Positions 10,792-12,199 of a stretch of 64,000 nt of DNA are shown piece by piece. The translations under genes and the position numbers were made by a program. The DNA is from Spirochaeta cellobiosiphila DSM 17781 (lineage in GTDB: Bacteria > Spirochaetota > Spirochaetia > DSM-17781): contig NZ_KE384555.1 of the NCBI RefSeq assembly GCF_000426705.1, forward strand, positions 158,362 to 222,361, given 5' to 3'. Each line of letters starts with the position of its first letter. Within the stretch, counting starts at the first letter, position 1. The notes beneath the pieces were generated by a model. It saw only the letters and a list, made by a program, of their open reading frames with translations. It ran no database searches and was not told the origin of the DNA.

Positions 10792-10804
10792 TGGTACATC
10801 TCCC

Positions 10805-10824
10805 TTTGTTCGGTTTCGAACAAA
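10805..10824 (-). promoter_or_regulatory. Putative MarR operator
   Basis: A perfect inverted repeat with 8-bp arms (TTTGTTCG, 4-base centre GTTT, CGAACAAA) lies 14-33 bases upstream of the marR start. Position, length and symmetry are those of autoregulatory MarR sites. No co-crystal or known consensus is claimed. Confidence 0.6.
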
Positions 10825-10904
10825 TTAAACATAAGCCATTCAAGAGTCAATATAATTTACTATTATTTTATTTTGATAGGCTTAAGAATAGGGAGTAGAT
10901 AATC

Positions 10905-11365
10905 CCCAAAAGCCATTGTCAGTATAAAAAGTACCCAATACTCACCGTCCTTTGATTAAATCAGGAGTTTCCCTGATAACGACTCAAGTTTACTCTCATT
11001 AAAATACACTTTGAGGTGCATCTTCTAGGGAATAGGATATGAACTCCCATATGGTGGATGGTCCTAACCATATAACTGTGAAGATTCTTCACGGGAAGTC
11101 TTTATTCTCATTAGGTATACAGGAGTTGGGATTTATACAATGTTTGGATTATACGTTATAAAGTTTATGGCTTCACAATTCGCCCCTGTCGAGGCTGATA
11201 TAAACAAATGAGAGTGAATACTTGATAAAAGTTCCCCGGCAGGAACGATTATCAAGCATAGTCTGTATTGAGCAAGGCAAAAATGTAATAAGCTAAGCAT
11301 TACAAGAACATCCACTTCTATCCTCAGAGGGAAAGATTCATAGACCAGGAATCTTTCCCCTACTT
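10905..11365 (+). ncRNA. Candidate structured RNA, unidentified
   Basis: The stretch from 10825 to 11728 has no credible gene, but its middle is dense in complementary arms. In order: ATCAGG/CCTGAT (10960-10977), ATATGGT/ACCATAT (11049-11073), GTGAAG/CTTCAC (11078-11092), the two-part hairpin CTTGATAA...GTTCC/GGAAC...TTATCAAG with an AA/GA internal loop (11221-11256), TGTAAT/ATTACA (11284-11304), and a terminator-like stem (11329-11359). A long-range 9-bp match (10992-11000 with 11207-11215) could close the core. A weak promoter (TTGATA at 10873) lies before it. I looked for the conserved cores of tmRNA, RNase P, SRP, 6S and common riboswitches and did not find them. Confidence 0.3.
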
Positions 11366-11372
11366 ATTTAAG
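11329..11372 (+). terminator. Strong hairpin, possible end of the candidate RNA
   Basis: A perfect 11-bp stem (GGGAAAGATTC and complement, 9-base loop) is followed by CTACTTATTT, a weak U-tract. On the other strand no T-run follows, so the plus-strand reading is preferred. Confidence 0.45.
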
Positions 11373-11426
11373 AAGACATCACAAATATTCCCTTTGAACT
11401 TAAATCCATTGACTTTTTCTAAGCTC

Positions 11427-11525
11427 TTGTCAAAACGAAACACAATCCAAGATAAGACTCCCCTATAGGTGGGTAATTATGATACATAATACCTTGTCAA
11501 AAAGACACTATGTCAAAAAGAAACA
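11427..11525. promoter_or_regulatory. Three TGTCAAAA-type sites upstream of the sigma-54 promoter
   Basis: TTGTCAAAACGAAACA (from 11427), TTGTCAAAAAGACA (from 11494, a TGTC-N5-GACA dyad) and ATGTCAAAAAGAAACA (from 11510) are near-copies. They lie about 115-200 bp before the GG/GC sigma-54 promoter, the usual distance for enhancer-binding-protein sites. The last two are 16 bp apart. The activator is not in this window. Confidence 0.5.
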
Positions 11526-11623
11526 TATCCTTTAACTTAATTGATCAAACAAGACTAAATCATAAATAATATAATTACTTACAATATAAATATTTAAAAA
11601 TTATTAACTATTTTTACCAATTC

Positions 11624-11640
11624 TTGGCACGTTGATTGCT
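11624..11640 (+). promoter_or_regulatory. Sigma-54 (-24/-12) promoter of hsp20
   Basis: TTGGCACGTTGATTGCT matches the RpoN consensus closely. The invariant GG (11626-11627) and GC (11638-11639) are separated by exactly 10 bases. Transcription should begin near 11651, giving a leader of about 78 bases before hsp20. Confidence 0.8.
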
Positions 11641-11692
11641 TAATGATTAGTGAGCAGATGGCTCAGAGATTTTACAATAAAACAATTAGCTT

Positions 11693-11722
11693 GAGATCCT
11701 ATGAGAGGATCTCTACAGGAGG
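11693..11722 (+). promoter_or_regulatory. Leader hairpin next to the hsp20 ribosome site
   Basis: GAGATCCT and AGGATCTC (11693-11713, 5-base loop) form an 8-bp hairpin ending 3 bases before the ribosome site CAGGAGG (11716-11722). The TCCT in the left arm could instead pair with AGGA of the ribosome site, so a temperature-dependent switch is possible but unproven. Confidence 0.35.
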
Positions 11723-11728
11723 CAAATT

Positions 11729-12142
11729 ATGAGATATTTAGTTAGTTCAAACAATGGCTTAGATTGGTCAAGAGATGTTGAAAGAATGATGAACGGGCTA
11801 TGGGGAAACAACCTCAGCACTGCAAAACCAGCTGTTGACTTCATTGAAAAAGACAGTGAGTATCTATTGGTAGCAGACCTCCCAGGAATCGATCAGAAGG
11901 ATGTTAAACTTGAGGTCAAAGATAATCTATTGACGTTTTCTAATATAGAAAAAGAAGATAAGACAGAAGAAAAGCTATCTTATCTTCTTAGAGAAAGACG
12001 AAGCAACACCCTGTCCAGAAGCTTTAGACTTCCTAAGGACTCTGACCAAGACAATATCAAAGCAGAACTTAAGAATGGAATATTAACAATCAACATTGCT
12101 AAAAAACCAGAAGCAAGTCCTAAAAGAATTGCCATTGATTAA
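11729..12142 (+). CDS. hsp20: Small heat-shock protein, Hsp20 family
   Basis: The protein has 137 residues. It has a short N-terminal arm (MRYLVSSNNGLDWSRDVERMMNGLW), an alpha-crystallin domain from about residue 34 (VDFIEKDSEYLLVADLPGIDQKDV through LRERRSNTLSRSFRLP to LKNGILTINIAKK), and a C-terminal tail carrying an I-x-I/V-like anchoring motif (RIAID). These are ATP-independent holdase chaperones forming large oligomers in the cytosol. Start ATG follows CAGGAGG. It is monocistronic, with a sigma-54 promoter upstream and a strong terminator downstream. Control by sigma-54 rather than a heat-shock sigma or HrcA is the unusual part. Confidence 0.92.
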   Translation: MRYLVSSNNGLDWSRDVERMMNGLWGNNLSTAKPAVDFIEKDSEYLLVADLPGIDQKDVKLEVKDNLLTFSNIEKEDKTEEKLSYLLRERRSNTLSRSFRLPKDSDQDNIKAELKNGILTINIAKKPEASPKRIAID

Positions 12143-12173
12143 ACACAACTAGACCCAATAAGTGTTCACCCCG

Positions 12174-12199
12174 GGGCTGTCTTAGGACAGCCCTTTTTT
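12174..12199 (+). terminator. Rho-independent terminator of hsp20
   Basis: The 8-bp stem GGGCTGTC/GACAGCCC with loop TTAG is followed by six Ts. The T-run overlaps the stop codon of the convergent GH43 gene. Confidence 0.9.

Follow-up and report, generated by a model that had tools for sequence, protein, structure and literature searches.

Predicted sigma-54 control of hsp20 through a conserved upstream palindrome and an Rrp2-type activator in Spirochaetia

Bacterial heat-shock genes are usually placed under sigma-32, HrcA, CtsR or HspR. The closest described relative of the system reported here is the HK2-Rrp2-RpoN-RpoS cascade of Borrelia burgdorferi (PMC1976401, PMC12472547), which has the same activator type, the same gene neighbourhood and a soluble PAS-type kinase; HK2 itself is a cytoplasmic kinase (PMC12472547). 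Borrelia Rrp2 is essential for a function that does not involve RpoN; no target is known for its HTH domain, and an rrp2 mutant shows changes in heat-shock genes (PMC12472547, PMC1976401). Only one gene, rpoS, is known to be under sigma-54 in B. burgdorferi, where Rrp2 requires no enhancer (PMC1976401); in the spirochaetes examined here, by contrast, chaperone genes appear to be direct targets and a conserved enhancer is predicted. Two further precedents link small heat-shock genes to sigma-54. For E. coli, sigma-54 transcription of ibpB has been reported (cited in PMC4370416); in that species ibpAB as a whole is transcribed by sigma-32 and ibpB alone by sigma-54, whereas at the present locus the sigma-54 promoter is conserved and no sigma-32 promoter is implied. 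In a survey of sigma-54 regulons, IbpA/Hsp20 (COG0071) appears with other chaperones in the groups predicted to be linked to sigma-54, and enrichment is described for Planctomycetota and Bacteroidota; that passage names no spirochaete hsp20, enhancer or activator (PMC12316311). Our search of the open-access literature returned no paper joining hsp20, sigma54 and spirochete.

The hsp20 gene considered here lies in a 64-kb stretch of the Spirochaeta cellobiosiphila genome (the window; its coordinates are used below, and all features are on the forward strand). It encodes a small heat-shock protein of 137 aa (11729-12142) that belongs to the Hsp20 family by its alpha-crystallin domain (Pfam PF00011, 5e-22). 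A Shine-Dalgarno sequence, AGGAGG, occupies 11717-11722, and an intrinsic terminator at 12173-12194 is consistent with a single-gene transcript. Upstream, TTGGCACGTTGATTGCT (11624-11640) matches the full -24/-12 consensus TGGCAC-N5-TTGCW, with GG at 11626-11627 and GC at 11638-11639 (GG-N10-GC). It is the sole exact match in the window, where 0.02 are expected, and the 3.95-Mb genome, which also carries rpoN, has five in all. The predicted transcription start, 11650-11652, assumes the usual spacing of some 12 bp downstream of the -12 GC. The leader contains a stable hairpin, GAGATCC/GGATCTC, at 11693-11713, directly 5′ of the Shine-Dalgarno sequence, and the intergenic region of about 0.94 kb (10792-11728) also holds an inverted repeat, GGGAAAGATTC/GAATCTTTCCC, near 11329-11360; Rfam gave no matches between 10700 and 12300.

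The preliminary description of this locus had proposed an upstream enhancer built from three TGTC repeats with TGTC-N5-GACA symmetry. The repeats are real: TGTCAAAAMGA at 11428, 11495 and 11511 accounts for all copies in the window, with 0.11 expected. They are, however, only pieces of a 17-bp palindrome, TGTRTCA-N3-TGAYACA, which we consider the putative enhancer unit and within which the proposed symmetry is retained. We scored the window with a 17-bp matrix trained only on regions from other genomes, taking p values from dinucleotide shuffles. The strongest predicted site, TGGGTAATTATGATACA (11470-11486; 18.4 bits, p<0.001), had been overlooked; its centre lies 146 bp upstream of the -24 element. 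Two further predicted sites, CTTGTCAAAAAGACACT (11493-11509; 11.5 bits) and TATGTCAAAAAGAAACA (11509-11525; 13.2 bits), are centred 123 and 107 bp upstream, and a weak fourth copy, CTTGTCAAAACGAAACA (11426-11442; 10.0 bits), includes the first TGTC repeat. An exact TGTC-N5-GACA is found at 11495-11507, inside the CTTGTCAAAAAGACACT site; one such match in the window is not significant. The TGTCAAAAMGA 11-mer was rejected as a regulon motif, as its 13 sites genome-wide compare with 10 for the reversed pattern and show no enrichment. Enhancers of NtrC are likewise 17-bp palindromes.

Relatives of hsp20 are present in 312 of 393 spirochaete genomes. We scored 103 upstream regions for a -24/-12 promoter, including the three from S. 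cellobiosiphila, with weights of our own choosing and a threshold of at least 14.5 of 16.5. Promoters were found in 94 of these 103 regions, a sample that is non-random because it was picked by similarity to the window gene; after shuffling, 0.8% of regions reached the threshold, as did 3 of the 103 opposite strands. By our count of kinship, 85 of 87 regions from the same class, Spirochaetia, pass, as do 9 of 16 from outside it. The full consensus promoter and its conservation in relatives thus uphold, as a prediction, the earlier proposal that sigma-54 controls hsp20, and the comparison of about 100 loci shows that sigma-54, judged from promoter sequence, is the usual way of running heat-shock genes in spirochaetes. 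An EM motif search started without a seed was drawn towards base composition and was replaced by counting gapped palindromes. This seedless count recovered GTCA-N3-TGAC in 14 regions and TGTC-N5-GACA in 9, with none expected for either, as well as TGTATC-N5-GATACA far above shuffles; the three overlap as TGTRTCA-N3-TGAYACA. With each family held out in turn, the element reaches at least 8 bits in 90 of 93 hsp20 regions (5.7 expected), its centres lying mostly 80-230 bp upstream and often being multiple. The predicted enhancer is not confined to S. cellobiosiphila but is the rule in class Spirochaetia.

Within the S. cellobiosiphila genome (G000; contigs C2, C3, C24, C26, C27 and C28 are mentioned here), a tandem hsp20 pair has an exact sigma-54 promoter in front (C2:1897-1912) and the fourth hsp20 (C3:118541) has a near match, so that every hsp20 locus of this genome has a sigma-54 promoter. 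At the C2 locus the element centres lie 147, 124 and 108 bp upstream, compared with 146, 123 and 107 bp in the window. At the third locus, on C3, the best site is weak (8.8 bits, p=0.04). It scores much like the best matches at nifH (9.4 bits, p=0.03) and at C27:63211 (10.1 bits, p=0.015), which may have arisen by chance. Matrix scoring did not find the element at the nifV, amt or C28 promoters, and matches in rpoB and a large hydrolase gene were rejected as background, as they fall within coding sequence. A sigma-factor gene at C24:640k combines a sigma-54 promoter with an element of 18.9 bits, one position off the exact pattern; its product scores below every NCBIfam equivalog cut-off listed, including those for RpoD, RpoS and RpoH. 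This list of regulon members in the genome is incomplete. A scan of genome contigs for hsp20 gave one distant match only. Sigma-54 promoters also accompany the nitrogen-fixation genes nifH, nifI1, nifI2 and nifD and a NifA-like activator at C3:132-145 kb (L062), and several sigma-54-like promoters adjoin a second kinase/response-regulator activator pair at C26:235-241 kb (L067).

Scanning all 393 genomes for the exact palindrome gave 52 sites in 43 genomes, compared with 4 sites for the reversed control. We classified these sites ourselves from gene neighbourhoods and hsp20 coordinates. Forty-four of the 52 adjoin hsp20, the gene of an alternative sigma-70-family factor, clpB, groEL or groES, and almost all of these are accompanied by a sigma-54 promoter: 20 are at hsp20, 20 at the sigma-factor gene, whose product is about 280-305 aa long, whose S. 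cellobiosiphila homologue is the C24:640k gene and which has a sigma-54 promoter in nearly every case, two at clpB (ClpB identity confirmed by NCBIfam), one at groEL and one at groES, the last with no obvious sigma-54 promoter. Two more are at the murG-rrp2 operon and six are unassigned. Such targets agree with the stress regulon that had been suggested from the window, and they suggest that the activator may sense stress.

The S. cellobiosiphila genome encodes six sigma-54 activators. The most likely candidate is an NtrC-type Rrp2 orthologue on C24 (about 648.7-650.0 kb), whose gene immediately follows that of a soluble, HK2-like PAS histidine kinase; neither gene is beside hsp20. The protein has a receiver domain, a Sigma54_activat domain with the GAFTGA loop and an HTH_8 domain, and the kinase combines PAS_4, HisKA and HATPase domains and, like HK2, shows no strongly hydrophobic stretch. 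Compared with NtrC and AtoC, the Rrp2 orthologue shares the receiver, the AAA+ domain with GAFTGA and the Fis-type HTH_8, but its predicted recognition sequence and its heat-shock targets differ, and its score stays under all NCBIfam equivalog cut-offs listed. The gene order murG-cvpA-holB-HK-EBP is common to this genome and to families f5 and f9, and the protein is 56% identical to the f5 and 59% to the f9 Rrp2-like protein. From features including a single activator and this gene order, f5 is very likely Borreliaceae; B. burgdorferi has the same order. Four f9 genomes (G149, G318, G266 and G238) encode one sigma-54 activator each and carry promoter and element at hsp20. In a phylogenetic tree, one 100/100 clade unites the activators of three of these genomes with the C24 protein and with the only activator of G134, an f5 genome; the fourth f9 activator, which was dropped by an ORF filter, has the same Fis-type C-terminus and adjoins a histidine kinase gene. 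The element also lies directly before murG, the first gene of the operon, in G149, G318, G266, G387 and G312; the rrp2 operon of S. cellobiosiphila lacks it there, as do several relatives. The Rrp2-type assignment follows from elimination through the single f9 activators, together with the element at the activator's own operon. At L276, L287, L288, L277 and L278 the palindrome at the head of murG stands without a sigma-54 promoter, and murG-cvpA-holB-HK-rrp2 may be autoregulated. In genome G364, whose assembly is 91% complete, hsp20 has element-like half-sites and no Rrp2-type gene was found. An unknown activator, as first supposed, is probably not involved; an orthologue of Borrelia Rrp2 with an adjoining HK2-like kinase is the better candidate.

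Another of the six activators might bind a genuine promoter and enhancer, for example the GAF-domain protein C24:69671 or the second response regulator, C26:240293. NorR is a GAF-type activator with a site like GTCA-N3-TGAC, which gives this idea some appeal. The f9 genomes nevertheless have element and promoter with an Rrp2-type activator only, and in family f12 the elements are strong although the best matches to the GAF protein reach only the level of other activators, the f12 activators in the tree not being its orthologues. The GAF protein was accordingly set aside in this phylum-wide test and, given also the element at the rrp2 operon in five genomes, we regard a different activator as unlikely. 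It is more doubtful still that the palindrome serves a separate heat-shock repressor or activator, in an HrcA-like role, as its operator and lies upstream of sigma-54 promoters by coincidence. The groES site and the head of the rrp2 operon, where the element lacks an obvious sigma-54 promoter, imply that the protein may also repress, but at hsp20 the element lies further upstream than a classical operator would and is often repeated, as enhancers typically are, and CIRCE (TTAGCACTC-N9-GAGTGCTAA, up to 3 mismatches) was found neither in the window nor in the S. cellobiosiphila loci examined (L060-L070). A chance -24/-12 look-alike beside three A-rich repeats in AT-rich intergenic DNA, which the unenriched 11-mer and the lone TGTC-N5-GACA might have suggested, is hardly credible and already refuted by conservation over many families and the phylum-wide excess of sites.

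We therefore favour, with a probability of roughly 0.83, sigma-54 control of hsp20 by the Rrp2 orthologue acting on upstream palindromes, as part of a protein-folding regulon shared within Spirochaetia. Sigma-54 RNA polymerase would transcribe hsp20 from 11624-11640; phosphorylated dimers of the Rrp2 orthologue would bind the palindrome cluster 107-146 bp upstream, reach the polymerase through DNA looping and trigger promoter opening, and hsp20 would be induced by stress. The same element and activator would drive hsp20 copies and the alternative sigma-70-family factor across Spirochaetia, with clpB, groEL and groES joining the regulon in some lineages. What the comparison shows, as predictions from genome sequences, is the promoter and the element, the conservation of the two together, the set of targets and the assignment of the activator to the Rrp2 type.

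As in the Borrelia cascade, sigma-54 would here drive the gene of a sigma-70-family factor. The f5 rpoS-like gene has a sigma-54 promoter and lies behind flagellar genes; in S. cellobiosiphila, a sigma-70-family gene at C24:612984 (L068 8118-9017) lies behind flagellar basal-body genes, has an exact sigma-54 promoter and encodes a protein 40% identical to the f5 one. This gene, in the same neighbourhood, has no significant element (6.4 bits, p=0.10). The shared neighbourhood suggests that the sigma-54 to RpoS step may be older than Borrelia. Among the seven f5 hsp20 regions, three reach a -24/-12 score of 14 or more, and by eye none of the seven has the element, which fits enhancer-independent Rrp2 there (PMC1976401). 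A Borrelia-type enhancer-independent pathway does not fit the window hsp20, where the predicted enhancer is present.

A whole bacterial class thus appears to place heat-shock genes under sigma-54, which requires an ATP-driven activator and permits little basal leak. The ancestral job of HK2-Rrp2-RpoN in spirochaetes may have been a response to protein damage (heat shock) served by a dedicated enhancer and a sigma-factor relay; we give this idea even odds. The Borrelia virulence cascade would then be a reduced remnant that lost the enhancer and kept temperature responsiveness. With a defined enhancer and a list of targets, the DNA target of Rrp2 becomes open to direct test.
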